This document shows positions 11,768-21,312 of a stretch of 64,000 nt of DNA, in pieces; within the stretch, counting starts at the first letter, position 1; each line of letters opens with the position of its first letter. The stretch covers positions 434,001 through 498,000 of the forward strand of contig NZ_VFQC01000002.1 in NCBI RefSeq assembly GCF_006717075.1, read 5' to 3'. Below the pieces are notes generated by a model that worked only from the letters and a program-made list of their open reading frames with translations, searched no databases and was not told where the DNA came from. This stretch comes from Haloactinospora alba. GTDB taxonomy: Bacteria > Actinomycetota > Actinomycetes > Streptosporangiales > Streptosporangiaceae. The translations under genes and the position numbers were made by a program.

Positions 11768-12625
11768 TCACGTGCCCTGGGAGTCCGAAACGGAGAGTTC
11801 CCGCAGCCACTCCGGGGGGAGCACCCGGACGCCGTTCTGCTCGCCGCCCACGGCGGCCTCATCCCGTGTGACCACCAACGCCGGGGAACCGCCGCTGTTC
11901 AGGGCGTTCTCCACCGCTGAGCTGGTGCCGTACCCGGTCACGACCTCCACCCCGGCTTCGGGAGGCGCGGTCGGCGCGGCGCCGTCCACAGCGAGCAGCA
12001 CCCGCGGGAACCACCGGTGCAACGGTGCCTGCGGCAGGTGCTGGGGGACGGCCCTACCCGGAACACCGTGCCGGGCGAGGGCGGCGAGCGAAGCGCGCAA
12101 CTCCCGCGCGCCACCCAGCCGCGCGCTGGCGGTGTGCGCGTCCACAACCAGGACCGGGTGCCGTTCGAGCGCCGCGCGCGCCTCCGGCCAGATCCGACGG
12201 AAGGCGGGCAGCAGCGGCAGGCTCTCGACCCGGTCGGCCCGGACCCACCGGATGTCCGCGCTCTCCGCGCTCCCCGGGGAGAACGCCCGCTTTTCCGCAG
12301 CCTGCGCCAGGACCGTGTCGTAGCGCCAGACCGTGTGCTCCTGACGGTGGATGCCGGTCACGGTGATCTCGCCCAGTTCCCCGGCGACCTCCTCGCGGAA
12401 CTCCCGCAGCGCCCCCTGGACCGGGGACTCGCCGCTGTCCAGCGCCCCGCCGGGCAGTCCCCAGGTGTTGCCGTGGTGGCTCCACCACGAACGGTGCTGC
12501 AACAGGATGTGGCCGATTCCGGCCACGTCCCGTCCGCACAGCAACAGCCCGGAGGCTCCGTACCGCCCCCACCGCCGCGTTCCGTCGGGCAGGAACACCC
12601 AACCGTCCCCGTCACCTGCGCTCAC
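11768..12625 (-). CDS. NUDIX hydrolase fused to a degenerate PIN/NYN-like domain
   Basis: 285 aa. Residues ~20-155 are a NUDIX domain with a full Nudix box (G x5 E x7 REFREEVAGE at about residues 58-81), which binds metal and hydrolyses nucleoside-diphosphate-linked compounds. Residues ~157-280 contain VLVVDAHTASARL and later ALVVTRDEAAV...GVRVLPPEWL. This layout resembles the VVDGxNV...VTxDRxL...GPxWL pattern of NYN/PIN-like nuclease domains fused to NUDIX in other actinomycetes, but the metal-binding Asn and several acids appear replaced. GTG 12625 follows AAAGGAG. Confidence 0.75.
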   Translation of the reverse strand: MSAGDGDGWVFLPDGTRRWGRYGASGLLLCGRDVAGIGHILLQHRSWWSHHGNTWGLPGGALDSGESPVQGALREFREEVAGELGEITVTGIHRQEHTVWRYDTVLAQAAEKRAFSPGSAESADIRWVRADRVESLPLLPAFRRIWPEARAALERHPVLVVDAHTASARLGGARELRASLAALARHGVPGRAVPQHLPQAPLHRWFPRVLLAVDGAAPTAPPEAGVEVVTGYGTSSAVENALNSGGSPALVVTRDEAAVGGEQNGVRVLPPEWLRELSVSDSQGT

Positions 12626-12753
12626 GCCGTCCGTCTCCTTTCCGGCTCCGTCCCGTCCCGGTCGCCGTGCCGTACAACGTCGGCAACCATCACGGTCTTT
12701 CCCCGCTTCGCGCCGCGGCGGAAGCCTTGCGCCCTCTGGTTACTATTCCCTCG

Positions 12754-14025
12754 ATGGCCAGAGTGACGATGGATGCCGTGAGAATCCCGGTATACACCCT
12801 CGACCTGGTGAGGCGGTACTGGGCACCCCTGCTGTGCGTGTACACCGCTGGCACCTTCCTGCACGGGATGCTGCTGCGCGGCATGGTGTGGATCTCCGAC
12901 ATCAACGCTGTCGTGGGTCTGCTCGGGCTCGGCCTGGCGACCCTGGTGACCCTGGCGACCACCATCCTCATGTTCCACATGCTGCGTCCGGGACTTCCGG
13001 TGGTGGACACCGAGCTCGTCGGCGCCCGCCCGGTCAAGTCCCGCGGGGAACGCGTCGTGGTGGACGCCGTCGCGATGGCGATCCTGCCGTTCCTGGTGTT
13101 CTACAGCGCCTGGGGGATGTACGCCGAGGAGTTCCGGACCTACAGCCAGAACCTGGTCAACGAGCGCGGGATCACCGGCTACGTGGAAACGGCCGAACTC
13201 AGCGCGTTCGGCCTTCCCCTCGCGTTCGCGCTGGCCTGTTGGTGCCTGCGCCTCGTGGTCGAACGCTACTACAACAGCACCGGGAACACCGTGCTCGGGC
13301 TGCTGACGGCGGTCTTCGAGGCCAACTGGATGTTCCTGATGGTGTTCTCCGTGGCGCAGCTGATCGACCGCGGCCAGGCGTGGCTCGCCGACCGTGTCGT
13401 GTGGGAGGGGATGCAGCACGGCCTCCAGGACTTCCTGCGGTGGGTGAACGACGCATTCCCCCTGCCCTTCGAGGTGAGCTATCCCGCCGCGCTGGCGGTG
13501 GCCGCCGCGGTCTGGAGCGACCTGAAGGAGGGGCTGCTGGGGCCGCTGTTGTGGTTGACGATCGCCGCGGTCGTCTTCGGGGCCGAGCTGGACAAACACG
13601 AGTCGCTGTTCCGCAAGGGGTCCCGAGGGGAGCGGCTGGAGAAGGCGGTCGGCCGAACCCCCGGAATGGTGCGTGGGATCGGGAAGTTCGCGGGACGCGA
13701 CCTGCACGACAAGTACACCCCGTTCCTCAACTCCTTCCGGCTCATCCTGCGGGTCAGCCCGGTGTTCTACCTGGCGTTCTGCCTGTACTACACACTCATG
13801 GAGCTGGGCGCCGGGTGGCTGGAACGGGGGATCTACGTCCTCGTCGGCCCCGCGGACTTCCTCGGCTGGTGGTGGCAGTGGCTGGAGCCGGTCACCATCG
13901 GTGTGGACGCGCTGCACGAGCTGCTGCGGGTGTGCCTGCTCGCGGCCACGTTCGAGCTGATCCTGCGCCGGATCAGCGCCAGCAGCACCGGGCGGCGCGC
14001 CAGACGGCCGGTCCGCGCCGAGTGA
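12754..14025 (+). CDS. Multi-pass membrane protein, unknown
   Basis: 423 aa from ATG 12754. A TACTAT -10-like hexamer at 12741-12746 ends 7 nt before this ATG, which would give a leaderless mRNA; a GTG at 12667 is an alternative start. At least seven hydrophobic segments are visible (for example around residues 20-40, 45-75, 90-110, 140-165, 185-210, 270-290, 330-360). A charged central loop is rich in Lys/Arg/Glu. No family is recognised. Confidence 0.7.
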   Translation: MARVTMDAVRIPVYTLDLVRRYWAPLLCVYTAGTFLHGMLLRGMVWISDINAVVGLLGLGLATLVTLATTILMFHMLRPGLPVVDTELVGARPVKSRGERVVVDAVAMAILPFLVFYSAWGMYAEEFRTYSQNLVNERGITGYVETAELSAFGLPLAFALACWCLRLVVERYYNSTGNTVLGLLTAVFEANWMFLMVFSVAQLIDRGQAWLADRVVWEGMQHGLQDFLRWVNDAFPLPFEVSYPAALAVAAAVWSDLKEGLLGPLLWLTIAAVVFGAELDKHESLFRKGSRGERLEKAVGRTPGMVRGIGKFAGRDLHDKYTPFLNSFRLILRVSPVFYLAFCLYYTLMELGAGWLERGIYVLVGPADFLGWWWQWLEPVTIGVDALHELLRVCLLAATFELILRRISASSTGRRARRPVRAE

Positions 14026-14040
14026 GCCCGGCCCCTGACC

Positions 14041-14082
14041 GGCGGACGCCTGTCCTGCCGCGCGGCAGGACAGGCGTCCGCC
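14041..14082. terminator. Bidirectional terminator
   Basis: Perfect 19-bp stem (14041-14059 with 14064-14082), GCGC loop, between convergent genes at 12754-14025 and 14092-14904. Confidence 0.85.
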
Positions 14083-14091
14083 GAACAGTGC

Positions 14092-14904
14092 CTACTCCGG
14101 CGGCTGGTCGAACAGGGCCGCCTCGGGTTCGGGCTCGGATGCGTCGTCGCGCGTGTCCACCCGGACCTCGAACCGCAGTGAGTCCACGGCGTCCTCGGGG
14201 ACCAGGTAACTCACCACGACGCCTCGTTCGGTTCCGGCCTCGAGCTCGGGAAGTTCCAGGCCCCGGCACCCGTTCAGACCCGAGACCGCCCCGTCCGGGA
14301 GGCTGCGGGACGTGTACTCGGTCGTGGGGGTCCAGGAACGTCCCCGGTCGTCCACGGCGCGGAACCGGCAGGAGGCCTCCAGGCGTTCCCCCGCCTCGGC
14401 GCTTTCCGGGGTGGCGGTGAAGACCGCGTCGACGAGCCGCTGACCGTCGGACGGAGCGTCGAGGAACTCACCGGTCGCGTCGAGAACCACGCCCTTGATC
14501 TCCCACTGGCTCCCGGCGAGCTCGGTAGTGGTCCCGTCGACAGGGGCCGCTGACGGCGGCATCAACCCGGAGGCGAGCACGGACCGGCGCTCCAGCCACC
14601 ACGGCACCCCCAGGGTGACGGGCAGAAGCACGAGCAACGCCAGGACGTAGGGCAGGTGGAGGCGTTTCCACAGGGGCGCGGCCCGCCTCGGACCCGCGGG
14701 GGCGGGAGTGCGCGGCGGGCCGGACGGTGGTTGGTGCGGCGGGGGAGCGCCGCCGCCCGGCCCGGGTGGTGGTGGGCCAGGGGGCGGTGTCGGCGGCCGG
14801 GGAGGCTGTGTTCCCGGCGGTGCCGGTGGGGTACCCCACGCTCCGGGGTGCGGCGGTGGAGCGGGAGGAGGGTGACCGTGGTTGCGGGGATCGGGGTGTG
14901 ACAT
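14092..14904 (-). CDS. Single-pass membrane protein with Pro-rich N-terminus
   Basis: 270 aa. Residues 1-75 are almost only Pro, Gly and His. A single membrane segment (about residues 85-102, YVLALLVLLPVTLGVPWWL) is followed by an extracytoplasmic beta-rich domain of ~165 aa ending in acidic residues. It is the last gene of a three-gene set (16144 to 14092) whose products share this anchor-plus-beta-domain layout. Function unknown. Confidence 0.7.
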   Translation of the reverse strand: MSHPDPRNHGHPPPAPPPHPGAWGTPPAPPGTQPPRPPTPPPGPPPPGPGGGAPPPHQPPSGPPRTPAPAGPRRAAPLWKRLHLPYVLALLVLLPVTLGVPWWLERRSVLASGLMPPSAAPVDGTTTELAGSQWEIKGVVLDATGEFLDAPSDGQRLVDAVFTATPESAEAGERLEASCRFRAVDDRGRSWTPTTEYTSRSLPDGAVSGLNGCRGLELPELEAGTERGVVVSYLVPEDAVDSLRFEVRVDTRDDASEPEPEAALFDQPPE

Positions 14905-14918
14905 GTCCGGCGCACCAC

Positions 14919-15521
14919 CTAGCGGGTTTCGGTCGGTGGGAGTGAGACGGATTCGTCCGCCGTGTCGATCCTTCGGGTGAGTTCCTCACCTTCCAGTTCC
15001 AGGTCGGCCTCGGCCTGGGCGGCCAGCCGTGTCTCCGCGGACTCGGAGAGGGCGACGCGCAGTGCGGGGTCGGCGAGCTGGTCCTCGGGCACCTCGAAGG
15101 CGAACGCGCCGTAACGCGGTATACCGGGGTCGAAGCGCGCGGCTGTACCGCTGAGCGTGTTGTTCAACCAGGAACTGCCGCTGTAGGTGGCGCCCGTGCC
15201 GGTGTCCAGCTCCGGGTGGACGGAGGTCAGGGTCGTCCGGGTGGACTCCACCGTCGCCCAGACGATCACCCAGACCCCGTTGGCCTCGATCGGCTGCGGG
15301 CCTCCGGTGCTGTCGGCGTCCGCCGCGCTGCGGGCGAGCTGCACCTTGTCCACGGTGAGCGTGAACCGCTCGGCGTCCACCGCCGTTCCGGCGGTGCCGG
15401 AGTACGTGACCGGTTCGGTCAGCTCCTCGGCGGAGGGGATCATCCGGTGCGCGCCCATGATCGCCGCGATCAGAGTGGCGCTGATGACGGTGGTGAGGGT
15501 CCAGTGGACGAACCGGGACAT
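14919..15521 (-). CDS. Membrane-anchored DUF4352-like protein
   Basis: 200 aa from ATG 15521, chosen over GTG 15530 because AGGAG lies 8 nt upstream of the ATG. One N-terminal membrane anchor (residues ~8-25) precedes an Ig-like domain with DAERFTLTVDKVQLAR and GVWVIVWATVEST, which looks like the DUF4352/telokin-like fold of secreted accessory proteins. Five nt separate it from the upstream stop, and 14 nt from the next gene, so the set is probably one operon. Confidence 0.7.
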   Translation of the reverse strand: MSRFVHWTLTTVISATLIAAIMGAHRMIPSAEELTEPVTYSGTAGTAVDAERFTLTVDKVQLARSAADADSTGGPQPIEANGVWVIVWATVESTRTTLTSVHPELDTGTGATYSGSSWLNNTLSGTAARFDPGIPRYGAFAFEVPEDQLADPALRVALSESAETRLAAQAEADLELEGEELTRRIDTADESVSLPPTETR

Positions 15522-15526
15522 GGCCT

Positions 15527-16144
15527 TCACTCCTGAGTGACGGGAAGGGTGACCTCAGCGGCGGTGTCGCTGGTCGCGAACCAGCGGGAGCTCCGGTCGG
15601 CGAACCCCGGCTTGTGCTCGGCCTCGCTGACGGCGACCGTGATCTCCTCCAACTCCTCCGGGACGGAACCACCGGAGGGCAGCGGCCAGCGCATGAGAAC
15701 CGTCTCCGGCATGTGCGGCTGGATGCTGGTGACGGGCAGCTCGGGGGCGCGCTCGAACACCAGGGAGAACTCGTCGGGAGGTGTTCCGCCGGGGGACAGG
15801 TCGGCCTCGATGGTCGACCGCAGTTCGCTGAGGCGGAAGGGCTCGTCGTCGTGGGACGTGAGCTCGGCTCGTACCTCCACGCCCGGGGTTCCCTCGGGGC
15901 CGGCCCCAGCGGAGCTGACCGCCTCGTGCGGGGTGAGGGTGAACATCGTGTTCTTCATGGGGGAGCCGGGTTGGAGCACCCGGTCCGCGTCGGACGCGCG
16001 GGCGAGGCCACCCATGGCCCACGTGGCCAGCGTGACGGCGCCGGCGAGGACACCGGATACCGTGACGAGGACGACCCGCGCGGCGGTGCTGCGGGGCAGG
16101 ATGTGCCCCGGATCGTCGTTGGGGGTGGGTGCGTGGTGTGCCAC
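15527..16144 (-). CDS. Membrane-anchored secreted-domain protein
   Basis: 205 aa if translation begins at GTG 16144; the frame is open to 16240, where only a TTG is found, so the start is uncertain and neither has a clear Shine-Dalgarno. A membrane segment near residues 22-44 (VVLVTVSGVLAGAVTLATWAMG) precedes an extracytoplasmic beta-domain. It is first of three co-directional genes with similar layout. Function unknown. Confidence 0.65.
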   Translation of the reverse strand: MAHHAPTPNDDPGHILPRSTAARVVLVTVSGVLAGAVTLATWAMGGLARASDADRVLQPGSPMKNTMFTLTPHEAVSSAGAGPEGTPGVEVRAELTSHDDEPFRLSELRSTIEADLSPGGTPPDEFSLVFERAPELPVTSIQPHMPETVLMRWPLPSGGSVPEELEEITVAVSEAEHKPGFADRSSRWFATSDTAAEVTLPVTQE

Positions 16145-16453
16145 GGGAACGAAGTGTATGCGCAACCGTCCGGGCGTGGCTTCCGGAGTACGCGTCCGGC
16201 CGCTCCGGTGTGGACGAGGGGGTTTCCGGGAAGACAACAAGGACGCGGTCCCGCGGCTGGCGCCGGCGGGACTCTCCCCGATTCCCGGGTGTAAGCGGAC
16301 TGAAACTTGGCCACAAGGCGCTCTCTCTAGCGTGAACGGTGTTCAGCGGGAGCGGTGTCCGCGTGAGTACCTCGCGGGCGCCCGGCCCGGTCGTTACGGA
16401 TAGGACGGTCCCACACCCCCGTCCTTCACCACACGTGCGGATGGGAACGAGAG

Positions 16454-16645
16454 ATGTCGACTGCCGAGCTGACCTCCACGCCGGGGGAAGAGTTCTTGGA
16501 GATCATCGCGGATCTCGAGGGGGAGGGGCTCCTCCCACCGGTACACGCCAAACTGGACCCGATCAGCGACGACCCGCGTCCTGTCGAGGAGAGGGAACCG
16601 GCCGAGGAGGACACCGAGGAGATCGAGGAGATCGACTGGCCGTGA
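16454..16645 (+). CDS. Acidic micro-protein with AKLDP motif, copy 1
   Basis: 63 aa, ATG 16454 after GGAACGAGAG. Sequence features: a short helical-looking N-terminus (EEFLEIIADLEGEGLL), then VHAKLDPISDDPRPVEE and a run of Glu/Asp ending IDWP. There are no Cys residues and no signal peptide. The motif AKLDP, followed by Pro and acidic residues, recurs in the next small gene. A RiPP precursor or peptide signal is conceivable, but no modifying enzyme is adjacent. Confidence 0.6.
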   Translation: MSTAELTSTPGEEFLEIIADLEGEGLLPPVHAKLDPISDDPRPVEEREPAEEDTEEIEEIDWP

Positions 16646-16703
16646 TGTTCCGGTAGCCGAATCCCGCACAGCCCATGGGAAACCCAGTGTGAGGAGTGCG
16701 GAT

Positions 16704-16862
16704 ATGACCGCGACGGTTGTTGCCCCCGCGGAGAACAGAACCAGGGTCGGCGAGCCGGCAGTGGCCAAGCTCGACCCGTACGGCGAGCCGGTTCCGGACC
16801 GTAGGACGGAAACATCCCCCGAGGAGGAAACGGAAAACGAGAAAGAGGACGGCCAATCCTGA
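16704..16862 (+). CDS. Acidic micro-protein with AKLDP motif, copy 2
   Basis: 52 aa, ATG 16704 with GAGGAG 9-10 nt upstream. It reads MTATVVAPAENRT..., then PAVAKLDPYGEPVPDRR and an acidic tail ending EKEDGQS. It shares AKLDP plus downstream Pro/acidic residues with the gene 58 nt upstream, while the rest differs. A hairpin terminator follows within 15 nt, so the two small genes probably form their own transcription unit before the SARP gene. Confidence 0.6.
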   Translation: MTATVVAPAENRTRVGEPAVAKLDPYGEPVPDRRTETSPEEETENEKEDGQS

Positions 16863-16875
16863 GGGAAACCGTCAG

Positions 16876-16921
16876 CTCACCTCCGCCACCTGGAAAAACA
16901 GTCCGACGGTGGCGGGGTGAG
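16876..16921 (+). terminator. Terminator after AKLDP micro-protein genes
   Basis: Stem CTCACCTCCGCCACC / GGTGGCGGGGTGAG (one bulge), 17-nt loop, ending 41 nt before the SARP start. Confidence 0.6.
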
Positions 16922-16962
16922 TTCTTTCTTCTCCCGTACCGGAAATAAAGGGCCTTGCTACA

Positions 16963-19900
16963 GTGCCATCCGTGCAATTCGGCGTGCTCGGCCCTATTTC
17001 GGCGTGGTCCGAGGAAGGCGACGCGGTCCGCGTGGGCGGTCCGCGTCAGCGGTGTGTCCTGGGCGCGTTGCTGGTCGACCTGGGCAGGGAGGTGACAGTA
17101 GAGCGGCTGATCGACTTCCTGTGGGACGACGACCCGCCGCGGACCGCCCGTTCGGTCGTCCAGGTGCAGATCTCGCACCTGCGCCGGGCGTTCCCGGACA
17201 TGATCCAGACGACGGCGGGGGGCTACCTGGCGCGGGTCGATCCCGCGCGCGTCGACCTGCACCGTTTCCGGCAGCTGACCACGCGCGCGCAGGCGGCGTC
17301 GGGCTCCGAGGAGGCGCTGGCGCTCTGGGAGGACGCACTCGCCTGCTGGCGGGGCCACCCCTTCTCCGGGACCGGTTCGGAGACGGTCTGGTACACCGTG
17401 TGCCAGCCGCTGCTGGAGGAACGCTGGGTGGCGCTGACCTCCTGGGCCGAGTGCGCGTTCTCCCTGGGGCACTACACGGACGTCGTCACCCGGCTCACTC
17501 CCCTCGTGCGCGAGGACCCGCTGCGGGAACGGCTGCAGTACCTGCTGATCGCCTCCCTGTACCAGAGCGGGCAGCGGGCGTCCGCGCTCACCGTGTTCCA
17601 CGAGACCCAGCAGCATCTGTCCGAGGAGCTGGGGGTCGACCCGAGCTCGGAGGTCATGGAACTGCACCAGCGGATCCTGAAGGACACCGAAGCCGTGGCG
17701 GCGCCGTCCCCGGCCACGGTGGACACGGTGCCGCTGCGTGTGGAACCCGCCGCCCCTCCCTCCGACCCGGAGGCCGAGGCCGCGCCGGAGTTCGTCTCCC
17801 GCAACGACCTGCCGCGCGACATCCCCGACTTCACCGGCCGGGAGGGGGATCTGAAGAACCTGCTGGACCTCGGCCGGAAACGCAAGGAGCGGGCCGAGGT
17901 CGCGGTGGTCACCGGGCCCGGCGGCGCCGGGAAGACCACCCTGGCCGTGCACGCCGCCCACCGGTTGGACGCGGAGTTCCCGGACGGGCAGTTCTTCATC
18001 GACCTGTACGGTTACAACGTCGACCAGGACCCGCTGACGGTGTCGTCGGCGCTGGGGAGCCTGCTGCGGGCTGTCGGTGTCGAACCGGACGCCATCCCCG
18101 AGTCCGTGGAGGAGCGTTCCGCGTTGTGGCGGGCGATGCTCGCCGGCAGGAAGTGCCTCGTCGTCCTGGACAACGCGGCGAGTTTCGCCCAGGTGTCACC
18201 GCTCCTCCCGGCGGCCGCGGGGTCGTTGACCGTGGTGACGACGCGCCAGGAACTGCCCGGCCTCAGCGGGGTGCAGTACCTCTCCCTCGGGATGCTGGGC
18301 GAGGACGCCTCGCTGCGGTTGTTCTCCACCGTCCTGGGGGCGCACCGCGTGGAGGGCGAGTACGAACGCGCGCTGGCGGTGGCACGGCTGTGCGGTGGCC
18401 TCCCGCTCGCGTTGCGGATCATCGCGGGCCGGATGCTGAGCCGGCCGCGGTGGACGTTCGAACACGTCGAGAAGCGGCTGAGCGAACACCAGCGCCGCTT
18501 CCGCGAGCTGCGGGTCGACGGGCAGAGCGTCGAGGCGGTGTTCGAACTCTCTTACCAGAGCCTGGACATTCCGCACCGCAACGCCTTCCTCACGCTCGGA
18601 GCGATGCTCGGGGGCAGTATCGACCTGTACGGGGCGGCGGTGCTGCTGGACCGCGACCTGCCGGAGTCGGACGACCTGCTGCAGGAACTCGTCAGCGTGT
18701 GCCTCCTGGACGAGCTGGGGGTGGACCTCTACCGGTTCCACGACCTCATCGGGACCTACGCGCGCCACAAGGCGCTGCAGGAGCTTCCCGGCTTCGAGCT
18801 GGAGAACGCGCGGCTGCGGCTCGCGGACCACTACCTCGACATGGCGAACCGGGCGGCGGCGTGGCTGGGGCCGCGCGCGCACGAGTACGACACCGAGAGG
18901 ATCAACGCCTCCCGGTACCGGAGCGAGATCTCCAGCGTCGCCGAGGCGATCTCCTGGTTCGAACGCCACCAGGAGAACCTGGCCTCGGCCGTCGATTTCT
19001 ACGCTGTCTCGGAGGAGGGGGAGAAGGCCTGGAAGCTCGCGGACTCGCTGTGGCGGTTCTACGCCTCGCACGGCGAGACGGAGCTGCTGCTGTCCACGCA
19101 CGAGAAAGCGCTCTCCGCCAACCGCTCCCAGGGGAACCAGCGGGGCAGCGCGGTCACGCTCATCGGCTTGGGGATAGCGCACTGCCTGGCGGGGAGGTTC
19201 GACGTCTCCCTCCGGCTGCTGGTCGAGGCGCGCGACATCCTCAGTTCGCTCGGGGACCGGGAGGGTGAGGTGCGCGCCTACGGGAACCTGGTGCTGGTCT
19301 ACGAGCGGATGGGGAGGTTCCACGACGCCCTGTCGTGCTTATGGACGGTCCTCGAGTACGCCGTCTCCGTCGGGGACCGCCACCTGGAAACCCTGCAGCG
19401 GCTCAACATAAGCGTGGTCTACCACACCCTGGGGGAGTGCGAGCGGGCCGCGCGGTTCGCCGAGGAGGCGCTGCAGACCAGCTCCGAGGAGGAGCACACC
19501 ACGACCCGTTCCGGTGCCCTGCGCATCCTCGGTGAGATCAACACCACCCGCGGGCACTACGACCAGGCGCTCGCGCAGCTGGACGAGGGGCTGCAGCTGG
19601 CCCAGTTCCTGGGTGTCCAGACGCGGGAGATCTACATCCACAACAGCAGGGCTGTCGCCCTGCGGGAGTCGGGTGCGCTCGACTCCGCCATAGAGTCCCA
19701 CCTGCGCGCCCTGGAGCTGGGCGAGGAGACCGAGCAGCGCAGCGCCGAGGCGGAGGTCCGGGTGGACCTCGGCGACACCTACACGCGCGCGCACCGCCAC
19801 ACCGAGGCGTACGAGGCCCACGCGCAGGGGTTGCGGCTCGCGCGGGAACGCAACGAACGCCACATCGAGGGGCGGGCCCTGCTGGGGATCGGTTCCCTTC

Positions 19901-20025
19901 CGGAGGAGAGCGTCCCGGCCGACGACGCCCTCGCCCACGTCACAGCGGCGGCCGAGATCTTCGACGACCTCGGTGTGCCCGAGGCCCAGCGGGCGAGAGA
20001 GGCGCTGCGGAGGCTGCGCGGTTGA
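16963..20025 (+). CDS. AfsR/SARP-family regulator with NB-ARC and TPR domains
   Basis: 1020 aa. Residues 1-~95 are an OmpR-type winged helix ([36 protein letters not shown]); ~100-245 the bacterial transcriptional activation domain; ~310-600 an NB-ARC ATPase with Walker [10 protein letters not shown] (~residue 317), Walker B CLVVLDN (~396) and GLPLA (~479); the rest is TPR repeats. This is the AfsR layout; such proteins activate secondary-metabolite or developmental genes, with the TPR/NB-ARC part sensing a signal. GTG 16963 is favoured by AAGGG upstream; GTG 16972 is an alternative. No biosynthetic cluster is adjacent. The neighbouring AKLDP micro-proteins are candidate ligands or targets. 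Confidence 0.92.
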
Positions 20026-20107: not shown

Positions 20108-20181
20108 CGGGGTGTAGCGCAGCTTGGCAGCGCGCTTCGTTCGGGACGAAGAGGCCGGGAGTTCGAATCTCCCCACCCCGA
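20108..20181 (+). tRNA. tRNA-Pro (anticodon CGG)
   Basis: Acceptor arms CGGGGTG (20108-20114) and CACCCCG (20174-20180), discriminator A 20181. The anticodon stem CTTCG/CGAAG encloses loop TTCGGGA, anticodon CGG. The T arm is CCGGGAGTTCGAATCTCCC-like. No encoded CCA. A strong intrinsic terminator follows. Confidence 0.96.
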
Positions 20182-20211
20182 CAGAGCATTGGCGAGAGAA
20201 CCTCGCTGGTG

Positions 20212-20260
20212 AAAGGGCCACCGTCTGGGAAGCAGGACTTCCCAGACGGTGGCCCTTTTT
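20212..20260 (+). terminator. Rho-independent terminator of tRNA-Pro
   Basis: Perfect 21-bp stem (20212-20232 with 20238-20258), 5-nt loop, with a run of five T at 20256-20260, 31 nt after the tRNA. Confidence 0.92.
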
Positions 20261-20367
20261 CGTGTTCGCGCGTCACACGTGTGTCCGGCCACGCCGCTTC
20301 CGTGACGCGGCGGACCGGCCCGCCCTCGGGCGTCGAGATGCGGAGGCGGAGGCACCCGTGGGTGGAC

Positions 20368-21312
20368 GGCCTGTATCCCACATGCGTGGGGAGCATGTAC
20401 CGCCATCAAGGAAGAGAGTCTTGTAGGCGGGTCCATCCCCGCGTGCGCAGGGAGCATGAGGGCAGCTCCACCGCCCGCGGACCCAGCCGGGGTCCATCCC
20501 CGCGTGCGCGGGGAGCATTGGTTCGGCCGCGGTGCTTACACCACACACCAGGGTCCATCCCCGCGTGCGCGGGGAGCATCGCAGCTGCTCCTGGTGGGCG
20601 GCCACGGCCGGGGGTCCATCCCCGCGTGCGCGGGGAGCATTCAGCGATGCGCCGTTTCGACCGGTAGGCGTTGGGTCCATCCCCGCGTGTGCGGGGAGCA
20701 TCTGAAAGGGAGAAGCGCGAAAACGTCGCGTACTGGGTCCATCCCCGCGTGCGCGGGGAGCATGCGTGGGGCGCTCCGGTGAGCTTCCTCAACGCGGGTC
20801 CATCCCCGCGTGCGCGGGGAGCATGGGCCGTCCTCACCGCGGGCGGACCGGTAGTCGGGTCCATCCCCGCGTGCGCGGGGAGCATGGTTTGGCCGAGCTC
20901 GATTGTGGACTCCGGTCGGGTCCATCCCCGCGTGCGCGGGGAGCATTCGTTCACCGTTTGTATCGTACGCGCGGCTGGGGGTCCATCCCCGCGTGCGCGG
21001 GGAGCATGCAATTTGCAGTGCCCTCCGTGCCGCACAGCAGGGTCCATCCCCGCGTGCGCGGGGAGCATGAGGGCGGCCAGCCCGTCCAGACCCGGGCGGC
21101 GGGTCCATCCCCGCGTGCGCGGGGAGCATAAGGCGTACAAGATCTCGCCGGAGACCGCGCGGGGTCCATCCCCGCGTGCGCGGGGAGCATGAGCTCGGCA
21201 CGTCCAAAATGCAAGCCCAACCGGGTCCATCCCCGCGTGCGCGGGGAGCATGAGGCGAGTGTTGAGGGTGTTCGTCCGGCCGTGGGTCCATCCCCGCGTG
21301 CGCGGGGAGCAT
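20368..21312 (-). CRISPR. CRISPR array 1 (type I-E-like repeat), 16 repeats
   Basis: Fifteen well-conserved 29-nt repeats (on this strand GGGTCCATCCCCGCG...GGGGAGCAT) plus one decayed repeat at 20368-20396. Starts: 20429, 20490, 20551, 20612, 20673, 20735, 20796, 20857, 20918, 20979, 21040, 21101, 21162, 21223, 21284. Spacers are 32 nt (one of 33). The reverse complement, ATGCTCCCCGCG...GATGGACCC, matches the type I-E repeat pattern, so the array reads on the minus strand with its leader at the right. The decayed repeat at the low-coordinate end confirms the trailer side. No cas gene is in the window. Confidence 0.97.

Follow-up and report, generated by a model that had tools for sequence, protein, structure and literature searches.

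In a stretch of 64,000 nucleotides from Haloactinospora alba (assembly GCF_006717075.1, contig NZ_VFQC01000002.1, positions 434,001-498,000 of the forward strand), called the window below and providing all coordinates, two small open reading frames (ORFs A and B) are members of an unnamed family of acidic microproteins and form a conserved pair tied to a SARP (Streptomyces antibiotic regulatory protein) regulator with NB-ARC and tetratricopeptide repeat (TPR) domains. The arrangement may be a two-tier switch, in which the regulator drives a microprotein operon whose products act inside the cell. Computation establishes the family and its invariable link to the SARP, the coding constraint, a conserved promoter of the SARP type, a hairpin in the majority of loci and a separate promoter motif of the SARP. 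The features of the locus are the following:

16290..16333, + strand: SARP-box promoter of the microprotein operon, from direct reading and conservation
16454..16645, + strand: microprotein A, type 1, 63 residues; helix, AKLDP, acidic tail, C-terminus IDWP
16704..16862, + strand: microprotein B, type 2, 52 residues from ATG; AKLDP, then a Pro/acidic tail
16876..16932, + strand: terminator-like hairpin with T-rich tail between the microprotein operon and the regulator (z = -4.05)
16959..16971, + strand: candidate -10 element TACAGT (16959-16964) and 7-bp spacer, the regulator's own, apparently leaderless promoter
16972..20025, + strand: large SARP with DNA-binding, BTAD, NB-ARC (nucleotide-binding oligomerization domain, NOD), arm and TPR domains; GTG start

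A first-pass annotation of this DNA had described two small proteins of 63 and 52 residues that share AKLDP; the observation is confirmed, and is judged real and stronger than stated. It had also given each ORF its own ribosome-binding site, which holds in full only for ORF B, where a clear GAGGAG can be read directly; the site of ORF A is weak, with no 4-base match by script score. ORF B has an alternative start at GTG 16689, giving 57 residues, and its product is without the helix part EFxxI that relatives have. The family plan consists of an N-terminal helix, then A[K/R]xxP, often EPxP, and then an acidic tail. The consensus of 38 aligned members reads VDxEFxxIVAGL, followed by AKLxP and an acidic proline-rich tail; in the window, the A[K/R]xxP core takes the form AKLDP. 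The predicted pI of these 38 members lies between 4.05 and 6.16. In type 1, represented by 12 of the 38, the C-terminus is [IV][DE][WLF]P, whereas type 2 has a Pro/Glu/Lys tail. The peptide structure is predicted as a single helix at residues 10-23 with the remainder extended (mean predicted local distance difference test, pLDDT, 71); 39 of the 51 prepared rows entered the structure alignment (A3). Single-peptide searches returned chiefly noise up to E = 1, and the family was reached from three real relatives among the matches, in genomes G010, G022 and G042.

The profile built from it matches 66 of the 341 genomes of the GTDB family, in 15 of its 68 genera, so that conservation extends beyond close strains, contrary to the refuting case named in the first-pass annotation. 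In each of these 66 genomes, an orthologue of the SARP directly follows the peptide, at most 1 kb downstream and on the same strand. One peptide is detected per locus in 44 genomes, two in 21 and three in 1, the last being a set of tandem copies (L315). Among 296 genomes of the class, some of them in-family, the profile gave just two marginal matches outside the GTDB family (E = 7.9e-4 and 8.9e-4), which are treated as chance. A scan of named genomes for the SARP itself yielded 59 loci, comprising 52 orthologues (48-68% identity), found in Nocardiopsis, Streptomonospora, Marinactinospora and Allosalinactinospora among others, and 7 remote homologues (30-34%). By profile, 51 of the 52 orthologues have a peptide upstream, and the 7 remote homologues have none. 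As the training sequences of the profile come largely from these species, the 51 are not an independent test; the reverse-strand control gave 0 matches in the 59 loci. At the 52nd locus, from Allonocardiopsis (L240), a diverged ORF judged by eye stands upstream. The hosts are soil and marine actinobacteria. The SARP frame looks broken in L238, L246 and L254 (and L116), three Nocardiopsis records (sp. CNR-923, alborubida and eucommiae) in which the peptide ORF is intact; the apparent breaks may be sequencing error or decay. The first small ORF of L213 also appears frame-broken.

The peptides are under amino-acid constraint. The ratio of nonsynonymous to synonymous substitution rates (dN/dS) is below 1 in 22 of 23 peptide pairs and between 0.2 and 0.6 in 17 of them, the pairs sharing members and hence not being independent. 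In 33 named loci, nearly all from Nocardiopsis, one peptide each is detected, of type 2 and with an extra basic N-terminus around RRATLRLYTSAVRRGVRVP. For this extension, the proportions of synonymous (pS) and nonsynonymous (pN) differences are 0.39 and 0.057, the latter biased low as the selecting pattern picks similar loci, and the extension is therefore probably translated. Other species named Nocardiopsis, e.g., N. halophila, N. potens and N. trehalosi, have two peptides and no basic N-terminus. An arginine-rich N-terminal segment is strongly conserved within the 33-locus group (among L214-L254), and the two-peptide genera are without it.

The regulator is a protein of 1017 residues and a large SARP of the STAND (signal transduction ATPases with numerous domains) type. 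Its domain matches, namely Trans_reg_C (3.8e-6), BTAD (1.4e-33), NB-ARC (6e-13) and TPR_12 (6.4e-18), bear out the first-pass description of a SARP/NB-ARC/TPR protein.

Ahead of ORF A, three repeats stand at an 11-bp phase, TGTAAGC (16290-16296), TGAAACT (16301-16307) and CACAAGG (16312-16318), and are followed by the -10 element TAGCGT (16328-16333). The layout TGTAAGC-N4-TGAAACT-N4-CACAAGG-N9-TAGCGT recurs before the peptides of other SARP loci. According to a passage of PMC10936776, the direct repeats of published SARP promoters are spaced by 11 or 22 bp, with the last one 8 bp from the -10 element, and the phase of the box in the window agrees with this rule within a base. The box was searched as a 43-base pattern, with the reversed pattern as control. 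In the window's genome, a tolerance of up to 3 mismatches yields one site, which is perfect. At no more than one mismatch, the box is present in 109 of the 341 family genomes (reversed control, 0), and a comparison of the two lists places it in 61 of the 66 peptide genomes, exactly once in each. With up to 2 mismatches, it is found in 49 of the 52 named orthologous loci, where the reversed pattern shows at least 4 mismatches throughout; two of the remaining three loci are cut by a contig end, and the third, from Murinocardiopsis (L243 = G007), has the peptide and a box with 5 mismatches. From the single, perfect site in the window's genome and the conservation of the box, the SARP probably acts mainly on the microprotein operon. 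Indeed, with a SARP-type promoter that is the sole such site in this genome, the regulator very probably activates the operon, presumably by binding to the box. The promoter architecture appears to mark the microproteins first of all as a target of the regulator.

The operon and the regulator gene seem to be separately transcribed units. A hairpin at about 16876-16921, followed by TTCTTTCTTCT, has a free energy of -38.4 kcal/mol, and 0 of 200 shuffles were as stable. The first-pass annotation had the small ORFs closed by a terminator; the hairpin with its T-rich tail is real, although a strict terminator scan does not list it. A hairpin with z < -2 is found in 33 of the 52 intervals between operon and SARP, the window included, and not in 19. 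Closer to the regulator, the motif TTGnTAnn[GT]T occurs 6-8 bp before the SARP GTG in 45 of 53 loci, again including the window, and looks like the -10 element of a leaderless SARP transcript. GTG 16972 is more likely the start of the regulator than GTG 16963, because the latter overlaps this conserved element. A candidate inverted repeat, AAATGGC...GCCATTT, often frames the SARP -10 element in loci without a basic-type peptide. It has at most one mismatch in 12 of the 17 loci that fit the search and 3 in the window copy (16947-16971), and L205 shows matching changes on both arms; the inverted-repeat loci are the window, L202-L213, L235, L243, L244, L249 and L251.

The reading preferred here takes the AfsR-AfsS system as its model. 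According to passages of PMC10936776 and PMC6988585, the NOD and TPR parts of AfsR inhibit its SARP domain, and AfsR switches on the adjacent afsS. AfsS has 63 residues (PMC6988585) and works "in an as yet unknown way", as a passage of a 2024 review puts it (PMC10972967). By analogy, the large SARP would be expressed from a separate promoter, apparently a leaderless one, with the SARP domain held off by the NB-ARC and TPR parts until a signal or a nucleotide state frees it. The freed domain would then bind the three 11-bp-phased repeats beside the -10 element and recruit RNA polymerase to the microprotein operon. The output would be one to three small acidic cytoplasmic proteins, each with a short helix, a conserved linear motif (A[K/R]xxP) and an acidic tail in extended form, which may act on an intracellular partner, docking by helix and motif, as AfsS is thought to do. 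Such a two-tier, AfsR-afsS-like switch with intracellular microprotein effectors is, taken as a whole, about as probable as all other readings together.

Several observations weigh against this reading. As regards the promoter, the reversed control yields 4 matches (3 and 1) in the window's genome at up to 3 mismatches, so that 3 mismatches are already in the chance range, and no other site comes near. Sites of other spacing would escape the 43-base pattern, which thus does not settle the size of the regulon. Five of the 66 peptide genomes (G007, G136, G172, G183 and G184) are without the box at one mismatch or fewer, and 48 of the 109 box-bearing genomes have no family peptide. In addition, the box stands 5-39 bases before a small lipoprotein-like ORF in 8 of 8 +-orientation loci read (L133-L161). 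Because the box precedes such ORFs in genomes without a family peptide, other SARPs probably share this type of site, and the lipoprotein-like ORF is possibly the target of another SARP. As regards constraint, the two highest dN/dS values of the peptide pairs are 0.97 and 2.58, the second resting on 1.5 synonymous changes. As regards the products, their effector role would follow by analogy with AfsS, and similarity to AfsS is absent among the ORFs downstream of 15 AfsR or AfsR-like loci, where the best match of the family profile has E = 0.66, the AfsS candidates being identified by position and short repetitive proteins being hard to compare. Finally, the site here is of the TGWAAGC type, in contrast to the repeat CGTT(T/C)ATCGNN given for AfsR in a passage of PMC10972967.

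The loci with the lipoprotein-like ORF belong to other genera of the GTDB family (L134, L142, L145, L146, L151, L157, L158 and L160), and the ORF has about 120-130 codons. One of these ORFs was scanned against Pfam and gave no match.

The leading rival is that the microproteins or their fragments are feedback ligands, which bind the TPR part of the SARP without export and lock or release it in a positive or negative loop; this is a tentative option, to be held as somewhat unlikely. It would account for the strict one-to-one pairing, and the free C-terminus of type-1 peptides is conserved as [IV][DE][WLF]P. However, the 33-locus group keeps the SARP with no detected type-1 peptide. The TPR half is predicted with a confident fold (mean pLDDT 92.5), and its model resembles APPBP2 (Z 31), MalT domain III (28), LGN (about 22) and subunits of the APC/C as well as Rap, NprR and AimR (VIA Z about 21-28). 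The resemblance to the peptide binders Rap, NprR, AimR and LGN suggests a fold compatible with peptide binding, yet the likeness is generic and does not discriminate. As regards coevolution, the distances between the last peptides of 47 loci correlate most closely with those of the TPR domain (r = 0.77 vs 0.55-0.63 for the other domains), with L208, L236, L238, L240, L246, L252 and L254 omitted on account of cut contigs, frame-broken SARPs, an undetected peptide or remote homology. This signal is not decisive, because most of it rests on one split, between 30 loci whose peptide has the basic N-terminus and 17 without it. In the former, the TPR domain (0.58) ties with the DNA-binding domain (0.57), the rest lying at 0.41-0.47, and in the latter NB-ARC (0.60) is ahead of TPR (0.57). 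A precedent exists in NosP, a SARP responsive to peptidyl ligands that come from the precursor peptide of nosiheptide, as a reference title and a review passage indicate (PMC10972967).

The first-pass annotation suggested another possibility, namely that the pair are precursors of an exported signal or a modified peptide, i.e., an RRNPP-like pheromone or a ribosomally synthesized and post-translationally modified peptide. A leader-like helix followed by a divergent tail, the small size and the three tandem copies in L315 would fit such precursors. The features of the products and of their surroundings nevertheless make this improbable. None of the 38 members has a hydrophobic or signal segment (maximum 17-residue hydropathy 1.32), and Cys is present in one of them. 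Scans of the 38 against Pfam, NCBIfam and PHROGs gave no match better than E = 0.017, and no precursor family was matched, the best NCBIfam hit (E = 0.033) being to an unrelated enzyme. With a STAND SARP in place of a helix-turn-helix (HTH) TPR protein and peptides devoid of such segments, the proposal of RRNPP-type TPR signalling is not upheld. The remark that no modifying enzyme was in view, on the other hand, proves sound over a wider sample. A survey of 24 loci found 15 neighbor families recurring in at least 4, of which 12 were scanned; these comprise the SARP, the nudix protein, four membrane-type proteins without a Pfam match, an MpaB-type oxygenase, a lytic polysaccharide monooxygenase, a glyoxalase-like protein, a DUF2786 protein and two without a clear match. 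Neither a peptide-modifying enzyme nor a peptide transporter is among these 12, and no biosynthetic cluster was seen among the recurrent neighbors.

That the small ORFs are bystanders, serving mainly as a regulatory leader (attenuator) for the SARP gene with products that do little, agrees with the hairpin of 33 of the 52 intervals but is most improbable, as the peptides are constrained, the basic extension included, and a conserved -10-like motif belonging to the SARP gene itself immediately precedes its start codon.

Upstream of the module, the window carries a block (11768-16144) encoding a nudix protein, a 452-residue protein (m452), memA, memB and m270, the last three with a membrane segment judged by eye. 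The gene memA (15527-16144, - strand) was found in 49 of the 341 family genomes; 40 memA stretches were fetched, 33 of them with the SARP. In the SARP-bearing stretches, the usual order is nudix, m452, m270, memB, memA, small ORF(s) and SARP, and small acidic ORFs stand between memA and the SARP in locus after locus. The block lies beside the module in most fetched loci, and it can be absent or elsewhere. Its proteins, except nudix, have no Pfam family match. As parts of the system, memA, memB, m270 and m452 were set aside: they are present without the SARP in G059, G106, G275 and G301, genomes in which the peptide profile gives no match. Conversely, the peptide-SARP unit adjoins nudix without memA, memB, m270 and m452 in L198, L201, L315 and L319. 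On the other side (window 20108-20800), a tRNA-Pro gene lies 3' of the SARP and recurs downstream in several genera; in the window, it is followed on direct reading by the start of a CRISPR-array-like sequence.

The locus bears on two open questions in actinomycete regulation: the signals to which NB-ARC/TPR SARPs respond, and the function of AfsS and similar small proteins. It offers a second case in which a STAND SARP has microproteins dedicated to it, invariably so in 66 genomes from 15 genera, and adds a microprotein family without match to Pfam, NCBIfam or PHROGs models. There are one to three small output genes and a single strong site in the window's genome; as a single regulator, a single promoter and proteins of 50-80 residues are involved, the question is unusually easy to test. 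It is conceivable, if rather doubtful, that the microproteins are intracellular ligands and that the SARP reads the amount or processing state of its own products through its TPR superhelix. Such a self-sensing loop, if true, would give the first defined ligand for an NB-ARC/TPR SARP to our knowledge, and it would hint that AfsS might do likewise for AfsR.

A description of this SARP-microprotein pairing was not found among the open-access papers searched, a scope outside which most subscription papers fall. Among known systems, the RRNPP regulators have an HTH and TPR architecture without a STAND ATPase, with a cognate pro-peptide that bears an export signal and a small gene next to the sensor gene. 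The present module is like those of Rap, NprR, PlcR and AimR in having a small gene beside the sensor gene and a TPR superhelix, predicted to be similar in fold to those of Rap, NprR and AimR. It differs in its STAND SARP with NB-ARC and BTAD instead of HTH-TPR, and in peptides without a secretion signal; membership of RRNPP was rejected on the presence of NB-ARC and BTAD and on the lack of a hydrophobic segment in the 38 members. NosP shares a SARP activity that answers to the products of a peptide gene, which here is a proposal only, but it belongs to a thiopeptide cluster, whereas no modifying enzyme was seen here among the scanned neighbors. Other large and medium SARPs of biosynthetic clusters, as far as a passage of PMC10972967 describes them, are alike in domain order and promoter logic; they differ in that no biosynthetic cluster was seen here among the recurrent neighbors and that, at the search stringency applied, the window's genome has no second site.

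The closest parallel is AfsR-AfsS, as a likeness of architecture. Descent from it was rejected as far as tested, on the regulator lying outside AfsR, the absence of a profile match beside AfsR and the difference in the repeat. The nearest curated family of the regulator is AfsR (NF053617), at 502 bits against a cut-off of 1430 bits. In a quick tree of 44 sequences, which has open forks and long branches, the orthologues of the regulator group together (support 100 when L284 is included, a row labelled "other" that is itself an orthologue and falls inside this clade), apart from a clade of 10 AfsR sequences, which exceed the cut-off, and 5 AfsR-like ones. Besides, the small genes number one to three and lie upstream of the regulator here, whereas in the 10 AfsR loci that were read, whose genomes are presumably those of Streptomyces, the AfsS candidates are downstream of the regulator. 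These candidates (L261-L270) carry repeats around LDN, such as TTLDNAMP or KPLDNH, with a likeness to AKLDP that is not significant by profile. Both systems nevertheless share an activator of about 1000 residues with SARP, NOD and TPR parts and an adjoining gene for a small protein. Moreover, the afsS promoter has 11-bp direct repeats next to its -10 element (passage of PMC10936776), and the promoter of the small genes here likewise has 11-bp repeats phased to the -10 element, in agreement with published SARP promoters and with AfsR on afsS (passages of PMC10936776 and PMC10972967).

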